Below are positions 5,618 to 46,244 of a DNA stretch of 47,043 bases, in pieces. Position 1 is the first letter of the stretch. Every line of letters starts with the position of its first letter. This stretch comes from Acidimicrobiales bacterium (GTDB lineage: Bacteria; Actinomycetota; Acidimicrobiia; Acidimicrobiales; UBA8190). The notes under the pieces were generated by a model, which saw nothing but the letters and a program-made list of their open reading frames with translations, was not told the origin of the DNA and searched no databases. A program made the position numbers and the translations under genes. Location: NCBI GenBank assembly GCA_031292675.1, contig JARLGQ010000115.1, positions 1 to 47,043 on the forward strand. The letters are read 5' to 3'.

Positions 5618-6268
5618 CGATCAACTCCCGCCTTGGTCGTTTGGCCTCAACTCGCCTGCTTCGGACGTCGATGACGGCTTCCGGAGGGTGCTCCACACCT
5701 TTCTCCCTTTGCGTTCCCGTGCCATCCCCACATTTGAGGAACCGCGAACCGTGACCCGAGGCGTACCCTTCGTGAGACCGACCAGCATGCCTCAGCCATG
5801 CACCGAGTTCACGGTGGGCGCACTCATCGACCACGTCGATGGGCGTCCCAGGGGGCGAACGCGCTCGCGCACCACTGGCGCGAGGCGCCAGGCACCGACA
5901 CGGGCCCAGGCTGCAACCCTCCACCCCGGCTGGCGGGACACATCGCCGGGCACGTGCGGGAACTCGGCAACGATGCGAGCTTGCCTTGACCACGTGGCCA
6001 CGCTCGTACCGAGCGCTTCGATCCCCGCCCGGTGGGGACTTCGGTGGACGTTGCACCCGACGCAAAGACTCCTCGACCGGATCGTGGCGATCACCGGCCG
6101 TGCCCGTAGCGCGACATCGCCCGTCGAACCTGCCGTCGAGCTTTCGGAGCGTCGATAGTCAAGACTGTCCGAGGCCCGCCCGTGGCATGGGATGTGGCGT
6201 CACGGTATCGTCTTGATCAATAGAGATGGCGATGACGAGGGCTCGGGCAACGGCAACATGGACTCCTG

Positions 6269-6748
6269 ATGAGCGGACCTGACCTTCCCCACCCTGGTTC
6301 CCATTTCCGAAAAGGCACCCTCGAGCGACTCCGTCGTGCGAAGGGCCAGAGGGCGCGAGTCGCCTCTCTCGCTGGTGTTCTGTTGCTCGTCGCCGCTGGG
6401 ATCTCCTTGGCTGTGGTCCTATCCCCCTCGAACGGCGGCGGCTTTCACGGGCCGCTTGGATCCAACCCCAAGGGCCCCGGGTTTACGTCGGGCACCGGGA
6501 ACACCGGAACAGGGAACACGGGCACCGGGAACACAGAAGCAGGGAGCACCGGAACAGGGAACACCGGAACAGGGAACACCGGCACGGCGAACTCGAGCAC
6601 GGCGGTCGCGGGCAACGGGAACACCGGAACCGGGAACACCGGCACGGCGAACCCGAGCACGGGGATCACGAGCAGCGGGAACACCGGCACTGCGTCAGGG
6701 AGCTCTGCAAGCGGTAGCGGTGTGAACGCCACGATACCCGGGAACTGA
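6269..6748 (+). CDS. single-TM protein with extracytoplasmic Gly/Asn/Thr pentapeptide repeats
   Basis: VASLAGVLLLVAAGISLAVVLS TM followed by (GTGNT)n; 15-bp periodic DNA. Confidence 0.65.
   Translation: MSGPDLPHPGSHFRKGTLERLRRAKGQRARVASLAGVLLLVAAGISLAVVLSPSNGGGFHGPLGSNPKGPGFTSGTGNTGTGNTGTGNTEAGSTGTGNTGTGNTGTANSSTAVAGNGNTGTGNTGTANPSTGITSSGNTGTASGSSASGSGVNATIPGN
6490..6700 (+). repeat. 15-bp-period coding repeat (GTGNT pentapeptide)
   Basis: Recurring gggaacaccggaaca / ggcaccgggaacacc units. Confidence 0.8.
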
Positions 6749-6791
6749 AGGCTCGGGCCGTGGGCCGGCCGGCGGCGGGTCAGCCGGAGTC

Positions 6792-7976
6792 CTACCCCAG
6801 ACGAAGCGTCTCAAGGGGCTCGAGTCGTGCCGCCTTGATGGACGGATAAAGCCCTGCTGCCACGGAGACGAACAGGGCAAGACCCATCCAGATCGGGATG
6901 TCCCCGTACGCGATCACGACAACCCAGCCTGCGAACGCCGACACGACATAGACGACTCCCACTCCTAGCACCGCTCCGATCACTCCGCCGAGCACACCGA
7001 CGAACAGCGATTCCAACAAGAACTGTCCACCGATCTTGGAACGGCTGTGACCCACGGCGCGGCGAATTCCTATCTCTGCCGAGCGCTGGATGACGGAGAT
7101 CGACATGACGTTCGCAATTCCGATGCCACCAACCGTCAACGCCAGCAGACCAGCGAGCAATGCGACCTCCTGCAGGGTCCTGTTGGCCTGCGCCGCTGCC
7201 TGGAGCACGTCGCTGGGGATCTTCGTCGACACCTGATCGGGCCCACCAAGGTTGATCGCCGTCGGGATCACGTTGGCAGTCCCTTGCGTGGTACCGGGAA
7301 CGGCGCGGATGTACAGCTGATTGGGCAACCCGTTGGTTCCCAGGACGTGCTTGGCCGCCCACTGGGTGACGAAGGCGGCGTTGTCGAGGTCCGGATCGAG
7401 TGCGACTGGACCGAGCACACCGACCACCCCGAAATTGGTGCCGTTGAGCAGAATCGTCCGAACCTCACCAGGCAGGTAACCGTACTGCCGGGCGATTCCC
7501 GAGCCCAGGACCACCGACCGCAGGTGGAGCTGGCTGTCGCTGGTATCCAACCAGCGCCCGTCGAGCAGCGGCACATCGAGGACGGAGGGAAGGTTGTCGT
7601 CGGCGGCTCGCACCGGCACCGGGAAGGCCTGGTAATAGCTGCTGGCCCCTTGGATGGGCAGGGAGATGACACCGGAGAGATTCGTGGTGGCAGCGGCACT
7701 GGTGACGGTCGAGACATTCTCCACTCGTTGCACGGCGTTGCTCGGAAAGGTCGGATTCTGCGAACCGAAGGTGCCACCCGCTTGGGCGATGATGAGGTTC
7801 GTCCCGAGTTGCGACAGTTGCGCTTGCAGGGCACCTTTGGCGCTCTCGGTCAACCCGACCGCGCTGACCATCGCGGCCACTCCGATGACCGGACCAAGCA
7901 GGATCAGCAACGTGCGGACCTTCCGGGCCTTGAGGCCGGCCCAAGCCACACCGACGAGGTCGCGCACCTCGTTCAT
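6792..7976 (-). CDS. ABC transporter permease, MacB/FtsX-like
   Basis: VRTLLILLGPVIGVAAMVSAVGLTESAKGAL; GGIGIANVMSISVIQRSAEIGIRRAVGHSRSKIGGQFLLESLFVGVLGG. Confidence 0.92.
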   Translation of the reverse strand: MNEVRDLVGVAWAGLKARKVRTLLILLGPVIGVAAMVSAVGLTESAKGALQAQLSQLGTNLIIAQAGGTFGSQNPTFPSNAVQRVENVSTVTSAAATTNLSGVISLPIQGASSYYQAFPVPVRAADDNLPSVLDVPLLDGRWLDTSDSQLHLRSVVLGSGIARQYGYLPGEVRTILLNGTNFGVVGVLGPVALDPDLDNAAFVTQWAAKHVLGTNGLPNQLYIRAVPGTTQGTANVIPTAINLGGPDQVSTKIPSDVLQAAAQANRTLQEVALLAGLLALTVGGIGIANVMSISVIQRSAEIGIRRAVGHSRSKIGGQFLLESLFVGVLGGVIGAVLGVGVVYVVSAFAGWVVVIAYGDIPIWMGLALFVSVAAGLYPSIKAARLEPLETLRLG

Positions 7977-39583: not shown

Positions 39584-41644
39584 TCAGCTGCCGTCTCCGG
39601 TCAGCTCCACCGCAGCCATGTTCCACCGTCCGCTCCGGGGTGCCGGGGCCTTGACCATGACCACCGTTCCGGCTTCGCCCGTCGGCTGGTTGGTGTACTG
39701 GCCCCAGTCGGTCGAGTGGCTGCCCCGGTCGATCCACTGGCCCAGGCGGACCCACCCGGGCGGCACGGTGCGCGCCGTCGTGCCGCCTCCCTCGCCCACC
39801 GCGAACACCAGCGACGTCTCGCTCGTCGTCCTGAGGATGAGGCTGGGCGCCCCGCCGACGCCCGAGGCAGCCGAGGACGCACCGGCGCCGTCGATGCCCT
39901 CCATGGCGATGACCGTGAGCTGTTGGTCGGCGCCCGGTCTCGCCAGGGTGGAAGTGACGGTCGCCCCGGTGAGGACACTCCGGGCCGTGGCGGCCCAGAT
40001 CTCCGCGTCGCCCTGCCCCCTGTCAGCCCGCTTCAGCAACTTCCAGGTGAGTCCGGAACCGGACACGGCCGCGGTCTCCTTGCTGGCTCCCCGAGGTCCG
40101 GCGCTGGCCACGAAGGCGAGCACGGTCTCCCCCGCGGCGGCGGTATGGAACGAGGGGGACGTCACGGTCCCCCGTCCACGGGCTCCCACCTGGACCTGGA
40201 GGACGAAGCACGTCATGGGAGGAGCAGGGTTCGCCACCGTCACGGGCACGTCGGTGGTCGCGCCCTTCGCTCCGCTCGCATTCGTGGCCCGAGCCGACAA
40301 CGTGTGCGGTCCGTCGGGGACTGCTTTGGTGTCCCACTGGACCGCATAGGGCGCGACGGTGACCGGAGCACCGAGGGGCCGCCCGTCCACCATGAACTGG
40401 ACCGATTTCACGGCCACGTTGTCATGGGCGATGGCGGCCACCGGGATCGTGCCCGAGACCGTCTGTTGGGAAGCCGGATTGATCAGCGTCACGTCGGGTG
40501 CGGGATCGCTCGAGCTCAGAAGACGGGCCGGAGCCGAGCTCACCACGTCCACGGTCTTCACGGCCGCGGTTGCCACATGTCCCTCGGAGTCCGTGGCGCG
40601 GGCACTGAGCGTGTGGCTCCCCGGCGACGTGCTCCCGACCGTCCACGAGTACGCGTAGGGCGGGGACTTCGTCGGCGGTCCCAGGGGCTGGCCGTCGAGG
40701 AGGAACTGCACGGAGGCGATCGTGGCCGGTGAGACGGCCTTGGCGGGCGCCCGCAGGTCCACCGAGCCCGAGACCTTCGCCCCACGGTCCGGGCTCGAGA
40801 GCATCACCGCGGGGGCTGCGGTGAAGGGAGTCGTCTGGTCGACCACAGCCACGTCGCCTCCGCTGATCTGGAGCTCTGTGTCCACGACGTTGTTGTGGCG
40901 GTCGCTCTCGGCGAACAGGTGATCCGGGTCCACCGTGGCTTGCAAGACGTAGGTGCCATCGGGCACCCCGGTCAGGTCGATGGGCTGGCCGTTGTCGGTT
41001 TGGTCGTACTCGTCACCCCATCCGACGCTGAGGCCGAGTGGTTTGTTCGGTTTGGTGCAGTTTGATTGGGGTGGCGACGTGTTGTTGGGCGCATTGGGCA
41101 CCCCTCCCACGAAGGCGTCAGCCGTGATGCAGTAATCGGTCTTCGGGCTGGTGGCCACCACCGCGCCGGGCGAACCGTCGCCGTTCATGAGGTTCAGGGT
41201 GAAGCGGGTCAACGGGTATCGGTAATCGCTGGGCGGGTCGAACACGCCCGTCGCGGCCAAATGCACCGTGTAGTCGGGCCTCCACGTGCTGCCGGTGCGG
41301 CTCTTGTAGATCGTCTGGACGAAGGTGGCGGTACCGGTGCGATGGTCGTACCTCGGCTTGATCTGGAACGGACCGGTTCCTGCGTCCCATGTGATGTGGG
41401 TGAACTGGAGCTGTCGATCACCGGTGTCTGGGTTGTCGCCGATGGAGATGTCGCCTGTCGGCACCTGGATCTGCAGGTCGGGCAATGTCACGTGGTAGGC
41501 GCCACGCGACGCACCGGCGGACGTCGCCAGGATGATCGGTGCAGCCACCACCGCCACCGCCACGATCAGCAAGGCTGCGGGACGCGGCATAGGCGAGGAA
41601 CGTGAACGAACGTGCTCACCTGGTGCAGTGATCAACCGAACCAC
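39584..41644 (-). CDS. secreted protein: lysyl-oxidase-like N-terminal region plus bacterial Ig-like modules
   Basis: Signal MPRPAALLIVAVAVVAAPIILATSAGA; GWGDEYDQTDNGQPIDLTGVPDGTYVLQATVDPDHLFAESDRHNNV; VSPATIASVQFLLDGQPLG..PPYAYSWTVGSTSPGSHTLSARATDSEGH (Big_7-like) twice. Confidence 0.75.
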   Translation of the reverse strand: MVRLITAPGEHVRSRSSPMPRPAALLIVAVAVVAAPIILATSAGASRGAYHVTLPDLQIQVPTGDISIGDNPDTGDRQLQFTHITWDAGTGPFQIKPRYDHRTGTATFVQTIYKSRTGSTWRPDYTVHLAATGVFDPPSDYRYPLTRFTLNLMNGDGSPGAVVATSPKTDYCITADAFVGGVPNAPNNTSPPQSNCTKPNKPLGLSVGWGDEYDQTDNGQPIDLTGVPDGTYVLQATVDPDHLFAESDRHNNVVDTELQISGGDVAVVDQTTPFTAAPAVMLSSPDRGAKVSGSVDLRAPAKAVSPATIASVQFLLDGQPLGPPTKSPPYAYSWTVGSTSPGSHTLSARATDSEGHVATAAVKTVDVVSSAPARLLSSSDPAPDVTLINPASQQTVSGTIPVAAIAHDNVAVKSVQFMVDGRPLGAPVTVAPYAVQWDTKAVPDGPHTLSARATNASGAKGATTDVPVTVANPAPPMTCFVLQVQVGARGRGTVTSPSFHTAAAGETVLAFVASAGPRGASKETAAVSGSGLTWKLLKRADRGQGDAEIWAATARSVLTGATVTSTLARPGADQQLTVIAMEGIDGAGASSAASGVGGAPSLILRTTSETSLVFAVGEGGGTTARTVPPGWVRLGQWIDRGSHSTDWGQYTNQPTGEAGTVVMVKAPAPRSGRWNMAAVELTGDGS

Positions 41645-41835: not shown

Positions 41836-42864
41836 TCATCCACAGCTTTCTGCGTAGCCGGTGGTGCCCGGTTGGTAGGCCTGTCCCGAATTCGCGTTCA
41901 CCATCAGACACGACTCGTCGACGGCGACGAAGGCGTTGGCCGGAACCTGCTTCAGCTGGTCCACCTCGGTCTCCGTCCACCTGGTGTCGGCCGTGCCCTG
42001 GAAGAACCAGTTACTGCCGTTGTCGGCCAGAATCAATCCGTAGGTCTTCATGGTGGTGATCACGGTCTGGCACATGGCCGAGCACTGCGATGCGGGGAGA
42101 CCGAAGCCGGCTGCCAGCCTGAAGCGCGCCCCCATCGGAGGACAATTGGCGTCGTTCTGACCGGCCTCATGGCGCGCCGGCCAGAGGTAGGCCTGTTGCG
42201 TGCACTGGGCCGTGAAGCGGATGGCGTGATTCATCGACCCTGACGACACCTCGTCGTAGTTGACGAGACCGGGGAGGATCGGCAGGCCCGCGGCGTCGGC
42301 GGAAGTCCAGCCTGCCGGGCGAAGAGCGTCCGATCGCAGGGCCCAAATGGCGCCTGATCCGGCTCTCGAACCCTTCTTGCCGTGGTAGTGGGTGGCGAAG
42401 AGCTCGTAGAGCGTGCACGTCGAGGGGTTCACCATGATGGCGTGACGGTCAGAGCCCCCTTCGATCGGCGTCGACCTGGACAGCGGGTACGGGCCCGGGT
42501 CGCTCTCAGACGCATACGTGAACCGCACGGAGACACGAGACTGTGAGGGAGCGACGATCTGCCACGGCAGGCCGTATGGCTTCTTCACCTTCCCGGAGGG
42601 GCCGTAGTCGGGGTGAAGAAACGCCGTCGATGCACCCATCGATGCAAGCCACCTGGCGCTGTTGGCGTTCACGGGGAGGCCCGTGATCGGCGTGTTCCAC
42701 ACGTTGTCGGCGGGGAATGCCGGGCACTGCGTTCCGGGAAGCACGGTTGCCCCGGTTTGTGCGCCCGCCGGTGCCGGAGCGGCCGCAACCACCATCCCGA
42801 CCATGATCGCCATGCCGAGCGCGGCTCGCGCCATGGCTGAAGGCCGTCGCAGGAATTCACTCAT
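41836..42864 (-). CDS. secreted protein of unknown function
   Basis: Start at MSEFLRRPSAMARAALGMAIMVGMVVAAAPAPAGA; PADNVWNTPITGLPVNANSARWLASMGA...; several Cys residues. Confidence 0.7.
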   Translation of the reverse strand: MSEFLRRPSAMARAALGMAIMVGMVVAAAPAPAGAQTGATVLPGTQCPAFPADNVWNTPITGLPVNANSARWLASMGASTAFLHPDYGPSGKVKKPYGLPWQIVAPSQSRVSVRFTYASESDPGPYPLSRSTPIEGGSDRHAIMVNPSTCTLYELFATHYHGKKGSRAGSGAIWALRSDALRPAGWTSADAAGLPILPGLVNYDEVSSGSMNHAIRFTAQCTQQAYLWPARHEAGQNDANCPPMGARFRLAAGFGLPASQCSAMCQTVITTMKTYGLILADNGSNWFFQGTADTRWTETEVDQLKQVPANAFVAVDESCLMVNANSGQAYQPGTTGYAESCG

Positions 42865-42955
42865 CGCCGATCCCCTCGCCGCGCCGATCGTACATTGATC
42901 CGGGATCGTGGGGCTCAGGGACAGGGATTGCCGTCGCAAGGACGGTCCGCCGCCT

Positions 42956-43384
42956 TCAACAGCCGTCCAGGTCCTCCTCGATTCGGAGTCGCAGCCGGGC
43001 GAGGAGGTCGGAGGTCGACACGCCCGGGGAGTAGGGAACGGTCCGGAAGATCCCCATTTCCATTGGAACGCCGTAGAGCTTCGTCGCCATTTCGGCATCG
43101 AAATCGTCCCCGTGCACGACTAGGTCGATTCGGTGGGTCTTCAACCACGCCTCGTGGACCACGAGGGGAGCATCGGGGACCACCTCGTCGACGTAGCGAC
43201 ATCCAGCCACCACTGCCATCCGCTCGGCCATGGTCATGAGCGGACGACGCTTGTAGGACGCGACGGTGCCGTCGGAGTGGATGCCCACCACGAGCGCGTC
43301 CCCGAAGGCACTCGCCTTGCGCAGGAACTCAACGTGACCGGGGTGGAAGAGGTCCGCCACCATGTCCACATAGACCCGGATCAT
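42956..43384 (-). CDS. HxGH cytidylyltransferase (GCT/PCYT2-like)
   Basis: YVDMVADLFHPGHVEFLRKASAFGDALVVGIHSDGTVASYKRRPLMTMAERMAVVAGCRYVDEVVPDAP; PGVSTSDLL. Confidence 0.92.
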   Translation of the reverse strand: MIRVYVDMVADLFHPGHVEFLRKASAFGDALVVGIHSDGTVASYKRRPLMTMAERMAVVAGCRYVDEVVPDAPLVVHEAWLKTHRIDLVVHGDDFDAEMATKLYGVPMEMGIFRTVPYSPGVSTSDLLARLRLRIEEDLDGC

Positions 43385-44448
43385 GATGCGAGAATCGTGA
43401 ACAGATCCTCGATCACCTCCTCGTTCATGTCGGCCCCCATGTTTGCCACCCGGAAGATCTCGGAGCGGAGCTCGTTCTGGCCGTGGTAGATCACGTAGCC
43501 GTGCTCGAGCGCCCTGGAGAACAGGGCATCGGGGTCGCGTCCCGCCAGCCTGAACGACGTCAGGACCCAGGATCGGTGGGGTTCTTCGAGCAGCGGCTCG
43601 AAATGACGGGATCCCGCCGCCCAGACGGCGCCCGACAGCCGGCGATAGCGAGCTGGCCTGTCTTCGGATTCCAAGATGTCAAGGGCGATGTCGAGGGCGA
43701 CCATGGCCTGGACGTTCGGTGTGCTCGGTGTGCTCTCGGCGTACGCGGGCACATCGAGTACCGGGACCGTGGGATGGGAGGGAACGTCCCGCTTCCAGAG
43801 GACCGCAGCAACGCCCGGGAGTGACTCCAGGCACTTGCTGCTGTTGAAGCAGACGACATCGGCGACCCGGTCGACTTCGTGCACACCGAGCGAGCTCACC
43901 GCGTCGACGAACAGACGTGCACCGTGGCGCCGGCAGAGCTGTGCCACGGCGTGCAGTGGATTGAGGATCCCGGTAGTCGTTTCGTGATGGACCATGGCGA
44001 CCCATTCGGGTCCCTGAGCCTCGATTACGCCCTCGAGGGCCTCGAGGTCCAAGGGTGCTCCAATTGCAGAGGAGCACATTGCCACCTTGGTGCCGTCCAA
44101 GCCGGAGAGGGTCCGTTCCAAGCGCCGGCAATAAAGGCCGTTGTCCGCCACCACCACGTTGCCTCGCACGAACGACGTGAGGGCAGCGTCGACCGCGAGG
44201 GTGCCCGAACCATGCATCAGGCTGAGCGCGAACTGACCCGAATCGAATCCCAGGTGGGCCAGGATCCGTGCACGCACCCGCGCCTGGAGCTCTTCGAACT
44301 CGGGTTGGCGGTGGCAGAGCTCGACGTTGAACAGGTTCTCCTTGATGCGAGGGTCGAGATTGACGGGGCCCGGGTTGAAGAGGACCTGTCGGCGCGGCGT
44401 GAACGGCACAGAGTCCTCAGCGACCCACCGCAGCCCGGCCGCCGCCAC
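43381..44448 (-). CDS. class V aminotransferase, 2-aminoethylphosphonate:pyruvate transaminase-like
   Basis: LFNPGPVNLDPRIKENLF; LMHGSGTLAVDAALTSF; WVAMVHHETTTGILNPLHAVAQLCRRHGARLFVDAVSSLG; NSSKCLESLPGVAAVLWK. Confidence 0.87.
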   Translation of the reverse strand: MAAAGLRWVAEDSVPFTPRRQVLFNPGPVNLDPRIKENLFNVELCHRQPEFEELQARVRARILAHLGFDSGQFALSLMHGSGTLAVDAALTSFVRGNVVVADNGLYCRRLERTLSGLDGTKVAMCSSAIGAPLDLEALEGVIEAQGPEWVAMVHHETTTGILNPLHAVAQLCRRHGARLFVDAVSSLGVHEVDRVADVVCFNSSKCLESLPGVAAVLWKRDVPSHPTVPVLDVPAYAESTPSTPNVQAMVALDIALDILESEDRPARYRRLSGAVWAAGSRHFEPLLEEPHRSWVLTSFRLAGRDPDALFSRALEHGYVIYHGQNELRSEIFRVANMGADMNEEVIEDLFTILAS

Positions 44449-44914
44449 CGCTTCGGCTCAACGCATCCCTGATCCGTTGGCTGTTGGCCTGTGCGGTCAG
44501 ACCCACCCGGGGCGCCTTTCCGTCCCTCGAGATCTTGACGATCTCCGTCACGCCGGGATAGGAGCCCTCCAAGGCTGCGCAGGGTTGGCTGCCCACGGAC
44601 TCGTGACATCCGTTGTCAAGGACGTAGTGATAGAGATTTGAAGGTCCATGGTCTCGCAAGGTGTGGGTCGTCCCTAGGCTCATGAGCAGAGAGCCGTCGC
44701 CGTTGATCACGACGACATCACAGGTGGCGTTGAGTGCCATCCCCAAGCCGATGGCGGGAGCCAAGCCCATGCTGCCTTGCATGTAGAACACGTCGTAGTC
44801 GTCACCAGCCTCCGCGAACACCGCCCGGCTGATGTAGCCGGTGGATGCCACGTACACTGAACCTCGCCCGTGACGATCCAGGATCTCTCGGATCGCCTGA
44901 GCCCTGGTCTTCAC
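44417..44914 (-). CDS. phosphonopyruvate decarboxylase-like TPP-binding subunit (C-terminal half)
   Basis: YMQGSMGLAPAIGLGMALNATCDVVVINGDGSLLMSLGTTHTLRDHGPSNLYHYVLDNGCHESVGSQ; GTG start with GGGAGGAGG upstream. Confidence 0.87.
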   Translation of the reverse strand: MKTRAQAIREILDRHGRGSVYVASTGYISRAVFAEAGDDYDVFYMQGSMGLAPAIGLGMALNATCDVVVINGDGSLLMSLGTTHTLRDHGPSNLYHYVLDNGCHESVGSQPCAALEGSYPGVTEIVKISRDGKAPRVGLTAQANSQRIRDALSRSGGGGRAAVGR

Positions 44915-44974: not shown

Positions 44975-45388
44975 TCATCCCTCATTGTTCTCCCCGGCCA
45001 CGAGGATGAAGTCGTCCCAACCCAGCAACTCGAGCAGGGAGCGGTCGATCTCCCCCATGACGCGGTGTTGCGTGAGGGTATGGCGGTGGCCCACGACCAA
45101 GAGCACATCGATCCCGTACGGGATGCACAGCGACGCCAGGGGGTTGACGGCGTGGCCCAAACCCGCGTTCTGAAGGTAGACGCACGGTTTCGCCCCGGCC
45201 AACGAGGCCCCGGCGGCGATCCCTATCGCTTCGGCCTCCCAGGTCGCCGTCACGTGGCGGTCGGCGGGGAGACGAGACAGATCGGAGATGAACCCCTTGA
45301 GGCCGCTGTCGGGCACCCCGGTGAAGAAGTCATACCCCTGGCCCAGCAGGCTGTCGAGGAGCCCGCTATCGGACGTAACGAGCCTCAT
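44975..45388 (-). CDS. phosphonopyruvate decarboxylase-like subunit (N-terminal half)
   Basis: GYDFFTGVPDSGLKGFISDLSRLPADRHVTATWEAEAIGIAAGASLAGAKPCVYLQNAGLGHAVNPLASL. Confidence 0.88.
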   Translation of the reverse strand: MRLVTSDSGLLDSLLGQGYDFFTGVPDSGLKGFISDLSRLPADRHVTATWEAEAIGIAAGASLAGAKPCVYLQNAGLGHAVNPLASLCIPYGIDVLLVVGHRHTLTQHRVMGEIDRSLLELLGWDDFILVAGENNEG

Positions 45389-46244
45389 TTTCCTTCAGCT
45401 CGTCCACGTAGATGATCCGGAAGATCTCGTCCATGCTGACGACATGATCGTTGCCGTCGGACAGCCGCTTGTTCTTCATCAGCACGCCGAACGTCTCATG
45501 AAGAGCTTTGACGACGGCTCGGATCCCGTAATTGGCGAAGATGATCAACTTGAAGCCGGCACTGTCGAGTGTCTCGTAACTCGTGGTGTTGTATGTGGTC
45601 GGAACGCACACCAGGGGAACGGTCTCGGATCGGTGCCAGGTCTCGGCAAACTCGAGGACGGGCGCAGGATCCTTCTCCTTGTGATGGATCAGGATGCCTT
45701 CGGCTCCTTCTGCCGCATACTCTCTGGCTCTGTCCAATGCCACTTTCATGCCGAGGCCCTTGATCAGGGCCTCGGTACGTGCGATCACAGCGAAACCGGG
45801 GTCCGTTCGCTGTTCCAGCATGGCACTGATCTTCCCGCAGAACGTGCTTGATCTTTCGAGCTCCTCCTGCATGCCGGCGTAGAACGAGCATCGCTTGGGG
45901 AAGATGTTGTCTTCGATGCACATTGCACTCGCGCCCGCCTTTTCGAACTCCCTCACGAGGCGGATCGTGTTGATCGCGTTCCCACCGCCGGCATTGCCGT
46001 CGACGAGGACCGGGATCCTGACGCGGTCGACGATCTTGGAGATGACGTCGACATAGTCCTCGGTGCCGAGTATGTCCGCGTCCGGCAATCGTGCGGCCGC
46101 GTGGACCTCGAAGCTCGAGATCCAGAGCCCGTCCGCCCCCGCTTCCTCGGCGATCTTGGCCCCCATGGCGTTGTGCACGCCCATGAACACTGCGGCATGA
46201 TCTCCATGCAGGAGCTCGAGAACTGTCTTGTCAGGGAAGATCAT
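45366..46244 (-). CDS. PEP-mutase/isocitrate-lyase superfamily enzyme, PEP-phosphomutase-like
   Basis: Full-length PepM-like pattern GLWISSFEVHAAARL...IPVLVDGNAGGGNAINTIRLVREFEKAGASAMCIEDNIFPKRCSF...FAVIARTEALI...VPTTYNTT...VVSMDEIFRIIYVDELKENEARYV. Confidence 0.88.
   Translation of the reverse strand: MIFPDKTVLELLHGDHAAVFMGVHNAMGAKIAEEAGADGLWISSFEVHAAARLPDADILGTEDYVDVISKIVDRVRIPVLVDGNAGGGNAINTIRLVREFEKAGASAMCIEDNIFPKRCSFYAGMQEELERSSTFCGKISAMLEQRTDPGFAVIARTEALIKGLGMKVALDRAREYAAEGAEGILIHHKEKDPAPVLEFAETWHRSETVPLVCVPTTYNTTSYETLDSAGFKLIIFANYGIRAVVKALHETFGVLMKNKRLSDGNDHVVSMDEIFRIIYVDELKENEARYVR

Follow-up and report, generated by a model that had tools for sequence, protein, structure and literature searches.

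A probable PEP mutase variant lineage with an EDN...KRCS loop in a predicted aminoethylphosphonate operon and in related cassettes of viral contigs

Introduction

Almost all natural C-P bonds are made by PEP mutase (PepM, also Ppm). In the M. edulis enzyme, Mg2+ is bound directly by D85 and through waters by D58, D87 and E114, and the phosphonyl oxygens are contacted by R159, H190 and, hypothetically, by N122 and S123 (PMC7916636). Published work also links N122 to the difference between mutase and hydrolase; a change of this residue to threonine has been proposed as the cause of hydrolysis in phosphonopyruvate hydrolase (PPH), a proposal that the same source doubts (PMC7916636). Three surveys have used the motif EDKX5NS as the defining filter for PepM (PMC6697681, PMC8931226, PMC12723261), and the logic by which ppm, ppd, aept and cytidylyltransferase genes provide aminoethylphosphonate (AEP) and its CMP-activated form is already known (PMC6697681).

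Several described families come close to the enzyme considered here, which is encoded in a 47,043-nucleotide stretch of an Acidimicrobiales contig (JARLGQ010000115.1) and referred to as the window. PEP mutases (e.g. 1m1b from M. edulis and 5unc from S. platensis; TIGR02320) share its fold, the residues D58, D85, E114, K120, S123, R159 and H190 (M. edulis numbering), and the operon partners Ppd, AEP transaminase and nucleotidyltransferase, whereas the window enzyme reads EDN...KRCS instead of EDK...NS, carries D87N, scores under the model cut-off and forms a separate clade with phage proteins. PPH (PalA, 2dua; TIGR02321) is on the same side of the tree and is substituted at the same loop position, but it keeps EDK, has TS in the loop and sits in a catabolic gene context, while the window enzyme has Cys at position 122. 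The CPEP mutase of the phosphinothricin/bialaphos pathway (TIGR02319; L091) is a C-P-forming enzyme with, like the window enzyme, a KRC loop and Cys at the N122 position; it differs in its EDQ and KRCGH residues, in its lyase-side phylogeny, in its substrate, and in acting second in its pathway, with a canonical PepM preceding it. Methylisocitrate lyase (PrpB; TIGR02317) has the KRC tripeptide in common with the window, but is a C-C lyase of a separate clade, with KRCGH and a Glu at the H190 position as opposed to KRCSF and His. Lastly, phosphonyl tailoring (Pnt) clusters that include PntC or PF01467 cytidylyltransferases have ppm, ppd, aept and cytidylyltransferase genes together, as in the window, which departs from them in its split Ppd and in a stand-alone variant mutase that fails the EDKX5NS filter of that survey (PMC6697681).

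The variant pepM gene

The pepM variant (45366..46244, minus strand) is an intact open reading frame coding for a 292-residue PEP-mutase-like enzyme with matches to TIGR02320 and PF13714 (149 bits), and its two motif stretches read VDGNAGGG and IEDNIFPKRCS. Alignment to PEP mutases of solved structure shows four changes relative to M. edulis, D87N, K116N, T121R and N122C. The metal and substrate residues D58, D85, E114, K120, S123, R159 and H190 are retained together with W44, S46 and D115, and of the residues in the M. edulis mechanism only D87 and N122 are missing. The active-site loop codons are at 45885..45914 (minus strand) and specify EDNIFPKRCS in place of the signature EDKX5NS, with N113 at the position of K116 and C119 at that of N122; the DGN codons are at 45993..46001 (minus strand), with D82 corresponding to D85 and N84 replacing D87. 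The loop DNA pattern occurs once in the window and in none of 100 shuffles.

The initial annotation had noted substituted signature residues in a PEP-mutase-like enzyme with a hybrid loop, and the alignment confirms both points: KRC is shared with methylisocitrate lyase and CPEP mutase and S123 with PEP mutase, and outside the loop the residues (H190, VPTTY) resemble those of PEP mutase and PPH. It had also joined the DGN change with those of the loop, and here the two come apart. K116N and N122C are clade-wide, but D87N is confined to the window (DGNAGG); all five phage relatives have Asp there (DADEGG), so this change does not belong to the signature of the clade.

TIGR02320 (PEP mutase) is the best curated model for the window enzyme, at 252.4 bits against a cut-off of 319.55, with lower scores for TIGR02321 (PPH; 196.6 bits, cut-off 374) and TIGR02317 (PrpB; 132.9 bits, cut-off 354). 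The enzyme of phage contig L027 likewise has TIGR02320 as its best model and falls under its cut-off (221.2 bits). The closest PDB entries by sequence are the PEP mutase 5unc (238 bits), the PPH 2dua (185 bits) and the M. edulis PEP mutase 1m1b (181 bits). An AlphaFold2 model of the window enzyme, built from nine window and locus sequences, has a mean pLDDT of 90.4, with lower values in the gating loop (74, residues 121-130), and Foldseek ranks the PEP mutases 5unc and 1pym (TM 0.88-0.90) above PPH (0.87-0.88) and the lyases (0.81-0.84).

Genome organization around pepM

The variant gene is the first in a compact minus-strand operon of five intact reading frames, in the order pepM, ppd alpha, ppd beta, AEP transaminase and CTP-transferase-like enzyme, with overlaps of 23, 32 and 4 nt and a single gap of 60 nt. 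Directly downstream of pepM are the two halves of a phosphonopyruvate decarboxylase, ppd alpha (44975..45388, overlapping pepM by 23 nt) with the N-terminal TPP domain (TIGR03297, 101 bits, positions 1-122 of 360) and ppd beta (44417..44914) with the C-terminal TPP domain (110 bits, positions 172-290 of 360). These are followed by a class V aminotransferase gene, AEP transaminase-like (43381..44448; TIGR03301 PhnW-AepZ, 184 bits), and by a cytidylyltransferase-like gene (42956..43384; PF01467, 68 bits) that overlaps it by 4 nt and whose product is likely a CTP:AEP cytidylyltransferase. Ppd, AEP transaminase and nucleotidyltransferase genes are thus all present beside the mutase, as in Pnt-type AEP/CMP-AEP operons.

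No acceptor transferase gene (LicD or CDP-alcohol phosphotransferase) adjoins the window operon, which is itself close to the contig end; elsewhere in the genome there are one LicD gene and three CDP-OH_P_transf genes. On contig C129 of the same genome a LicD gene is followed by a fused nucleotidyltransferase/class I aminotransferase (L090 3211-6211), and this is possibly a surface-tailoring locus able to use CMP-AEP. We also note two predicted secreted proteins encoded downstream of the operon (41836-43098 and 39584-41644, both minus strand), one without a family match and the other with lysyl-oxidase and Big_7 matches.

The assembled genome has no second PEP-mutase-like gene matching the window protein, and its other PF13714 genes belong to another type that is not PepM, which leaves no alternative enzyme in it to supply the operon. 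The genome is a bin, 86% complete and 7% contaminated, and GC is 0.66 in the window and 0.69-0.73 in five other stretches; the lower value makes misbinning or a foreign island possible, and the host assignment is not firm.

Phage relatives and their cassettes

The first relative came from a viral contig scan with alignment, as a protein of 53% identity encoded on an IMG/VR contig of 136 kb. Five IMG/VR contigs (L021/L026/L036, L025/L035, L027/L038, L037 and L039) encode EDNPSPKRCS enzymes with 53-54% protein identity to the window pepM product, and all five have pepM, ppd alpha, ppd beta, an aminotransferase gene and a PF01467 gene in an order identical to that of the window. The initial annotation had given the pepM gene, which stands, but both the operon and these phage relatives were missing from it. 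The pepM-ppd-aept-CyT cassettes are at L021 4998-9264, L025 7995-13192, L027 7998-11085, L037 3-2953 and L039 8001-14068. They are often accompanied by LicD genes and glycosyltransferases, with LicD-family genes close to the cassette in three of the five contigs. One cassette contig has a T4-type terminase domain and another a late sigma factor gene, which supports their phage nature; viral status is otherwise the IMG/VR assignment. From their gene content, these uncultured phages seem to encode their own CMP-aminoethylphosphonate synthesis.

Four of the window genes are closer to the phage cassettes than to other phosphonate loci, with identities of 53-54% versus 32-41% for pepM, 53-59% versus 38% for ppd alpha, 53-59% versus 36-43% for ppd beta, and 39-46% versus 32-39% for the PF01467 gene. 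The aminotransferase shows the opposite, with 34-37% identity to bacterial enzymes and 24-27% to those of the phage cassettes, and because it is nearer to the bacterial copies, this one gene seems to have been exchanged. Among INPHARED phages the best matches have 29-31% identity and no phage-borne pathway of this kind was found; there is no entry for the mutase that we could find in PHROGs, and no phage-encoded phosphonate pathway is reported in the open-licence papers searched.

Phylogeny and selection

A phylogeny, one of the checks proposed with the initial annotation, was rooted against nine to sixteen outgroup rows from the lyase side. It groups the enzymes of the window and the phages in a single clade, supported at 100/100 and, once the two motif stretches are taken out, at 100/99 to 100/100. 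This clade lands on the PEP mutase/PPH side, apart from the lyases (100/100; 95/100 without the motif columns). Within that side the AU test (p 0.22-0.46) is compatible with several placements of the clade: as the first branch, outside all other members (92/91 in one tree), or as sister of the EDN..NS phage fusions described below (69/64), of PPH (p 0.46) or of canonical PEP mutase. As drawn, the window enzyme is outside the PPH clade, which has 99-100% support. We do not claim the KRC loop as an ancestral trait, since the position outside PEP mutase and PPH comes from one tree and the AU values without motif columns are those given above.

Among phage pairs, pepM has pS of 0.69-0.92 (near saturation) and pN of 0.08-0.16. 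The motif codons vary (GAA/GAG, AAC/AAT, AAG/AAA, AGA/CGA, and a Cys codon that is TGT in the phages and TGC in the window) with the residues constant, and because the phage motif codons differ only synonymously, the loop is maintained by selection. Assembly error or decay as the source of the loop is ruled out by the presence of EDN..PKRCS in five phage contigs and by the strong purifying selection.

Loop variants and their distribution

Among the sequences compared, N122C on the PEP mutase/PPH side is confined to the window/phage clade. There are, however, other instances of K116N in which N122 is kept. One example is the fused cytidylyltransferase-PEP mutases with EDN..NS in phage contigs L005 (4557-5813) and L022 (4584-5849), where both loci, read directly, have split ppd genes adjoining the fusion; a further EDN..NS fusion is at L023 4587-5824. 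A second example is the actinobacterial gene L080, with EDNLFPKRNS. In L005, an HNH-endonuclease-like stretch lies ahead of ppd beta within a single reading frame (6164-7384). A PEP-mutase-like gene with CDNGFGG and EDNLFPKRNS, and no ppd alongside, is present in genome G832 of the same class (L089 6217-7143, minus strand).

The only CPEP mutase equivalog found in 394 genomes (TIGR02319, 672 bits; genome G1042, L092 5305-6192, minus strand) reads LEDQVNPKRCGH (loop EDQVNPKRCGH), with Cys at the N122 position. It is adjoined by an EDK PEP mutase, Ppd and an enolase-like gene, a neighbourhood that we take, from the model name and general knowledge, to be a phosphinothricin-type cluster. Since a CPEP mutase has Cys at this position, a loop of this kind does not conflict with C-P mutase chemistry.

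No other KRCS enzymes were found by profile searches of 17 family and 395 class genomes, or by single-protein searches of about 400 order and about 400 phylum genomes. The strict E-value limit of 1e-60 in one of these searches could mask ordinary PEP mutases, though a relative with 53% identity would have passed it. A single-protein scan of genome contigs gave no relative and an alignment scan gave a single one, in which a nucleotidyltransferase is fused to an ordinary EDK enzyme; the contig scans match short patterns (e.g. AMCIEDN), so rarity in bacteria is loosely bounded, with about 1,200 relatives searched. Plasmids yielded only PEP mutases and PPH-like enzymes with no more than 43% identity to the window enzyme.

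Discussion

C-P bond formation, as raised in the initial annotation, is the best reading of the variant, because pepM heads a ppd-aept-cytidylyltransferase operon. We are fairly confident that the window enzyme is a working PEP mutase variant that feeds AEP synthesis, with phosphonopyruvate formation pulled forward by Ppd, and the operon product probably continues to CMP-aminoethylphosphonate. From the sequence, operon, clade and selection on the loop we infer a pathway in which the variant mutase would convert phosphoenolpyruvate to phosphonopyruvate, the split Ppd would decarboxylate this to phosphonoacetaldehyde and so drive the unfavourable first step forward, the class V aminotransferase would yield 2-aminoethylphosphonate, and the PF01467 enzyme would turn it into the activated form CMP-AEP, to be passed on to a surface molecule. 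In the active site, Mg2+ and its waters would still be held by D85 with D58 and E114, and the migrating phosphoryl group by R159, H190, K120 and S123, with Cys119 standing in the gating loop where the M. edulis enzyme has Asn122.

The sub-threshold model score (252 of 319.55 bits), the absence of EDKX5NS and the loss of D87 in the window count against a PEP mutase, and the open-licence papers searched contain no EDNxFPKRCS subclade with demonstrated mutase activity. By signature and by model cut-off, two defining tests for PEP mutase in current use, the enzyme falls short, and we therefore do not class it with the canonical PepMs; the most fitting description is a new variant lineage of the PEP mutase/PPH group, PepM-like by every measure of its context. 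A bolder proposal, which we regard as rather unlikely, is that the EDN...KRCS enzymes are mechanistically distinct C-P mutases in which Cys takes part directly in phosphoryl transfer, in a lineage exchanged between bacteria and T4-like phages that decorate a surface glycan with AEP. Perhaps a transient S-phosphocysteine would form at the N122 position, in keeping with the known retention at phosphorus.

Other explanations fare less well. That D87N on top of N122C has left the window lineage with a catalytically weakened or decaying enzyme, the phage copies being active, is quite unlikely; D87N is peculiar to the window and D87 holds a metal-bound water in the M. edulis enzyme (PMC7916636), but all five reading frames are intact and compactly arranged, and the remaining catalytic residues are kept. 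We think it very unlikely that the N122 substitution makes the mutase a C-P-cleaving hydrolase, as is thought for N122T in PalA, and this option of the initial annotation is disfavoured. PPH does differ from PEP mutase by a T at the same loop position (PMC7916636), and the AU test leaves the clade as its sister, but PPH keeps EDK and has T rather than C, and the window enzyme is outside the PPH clade as drawn and has no catabolic context. The three plasmid PPH-like genes inspected adjoin transporters, regulators or unrelated catabolic genes, with no ppd or cytidylyltransferase, whereas the window gene heads a biosynthetic operon in which a hydrolase would destroy the substrate of the neighbouring Ppd. 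It is highly improbable that the operon is a C-C or C-S variant making some other 3-substituted pyruvate (e.g. sulfopyruvate) for decarboxylation by the split TPP enzyme; the split alpha/beta layout is in keeping with this and both Ppd halves match sulfopyruvate decarboxylase models (71 and 91 bits), but the phosphonopyruvate decarboxylase model scores higher for each (101 and 110 bits), the acceptor of a cytidylyltransferase has to offer a phosphate or phosphonate oxygen, and genes of the LicD family are near three of the five phage cassettes. Least probable of all is the lyase option of that annotation, a methylisocitrate/oxaloacetate-type enzyme with a retained KRC loop and Cys119 as catalytic acid/base, for although KRC is common to methylisocitrate lyases, these read KRCGH, with E in the place of H190, as against KRCSF, H190 and VPTTY in the window, the TIGR02317 score is low (133 of 354 bits), the tree separates the two (100/100, or 95/100 without motif columns), and a catabolic context is lacking.

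The window/phage lineage fails EDKX5NS yet sits in a complete aminoethylphosphonate operon, and phosphonate makers, phages included, may therefore be undercounted. The natural K116N and N122C variants could be used to probe what holds the metaphosphate-like intermediate and bear on what separates mutase from hydrolase, and the phage copies suggest that there are viruses building their own phosphonate pathway.
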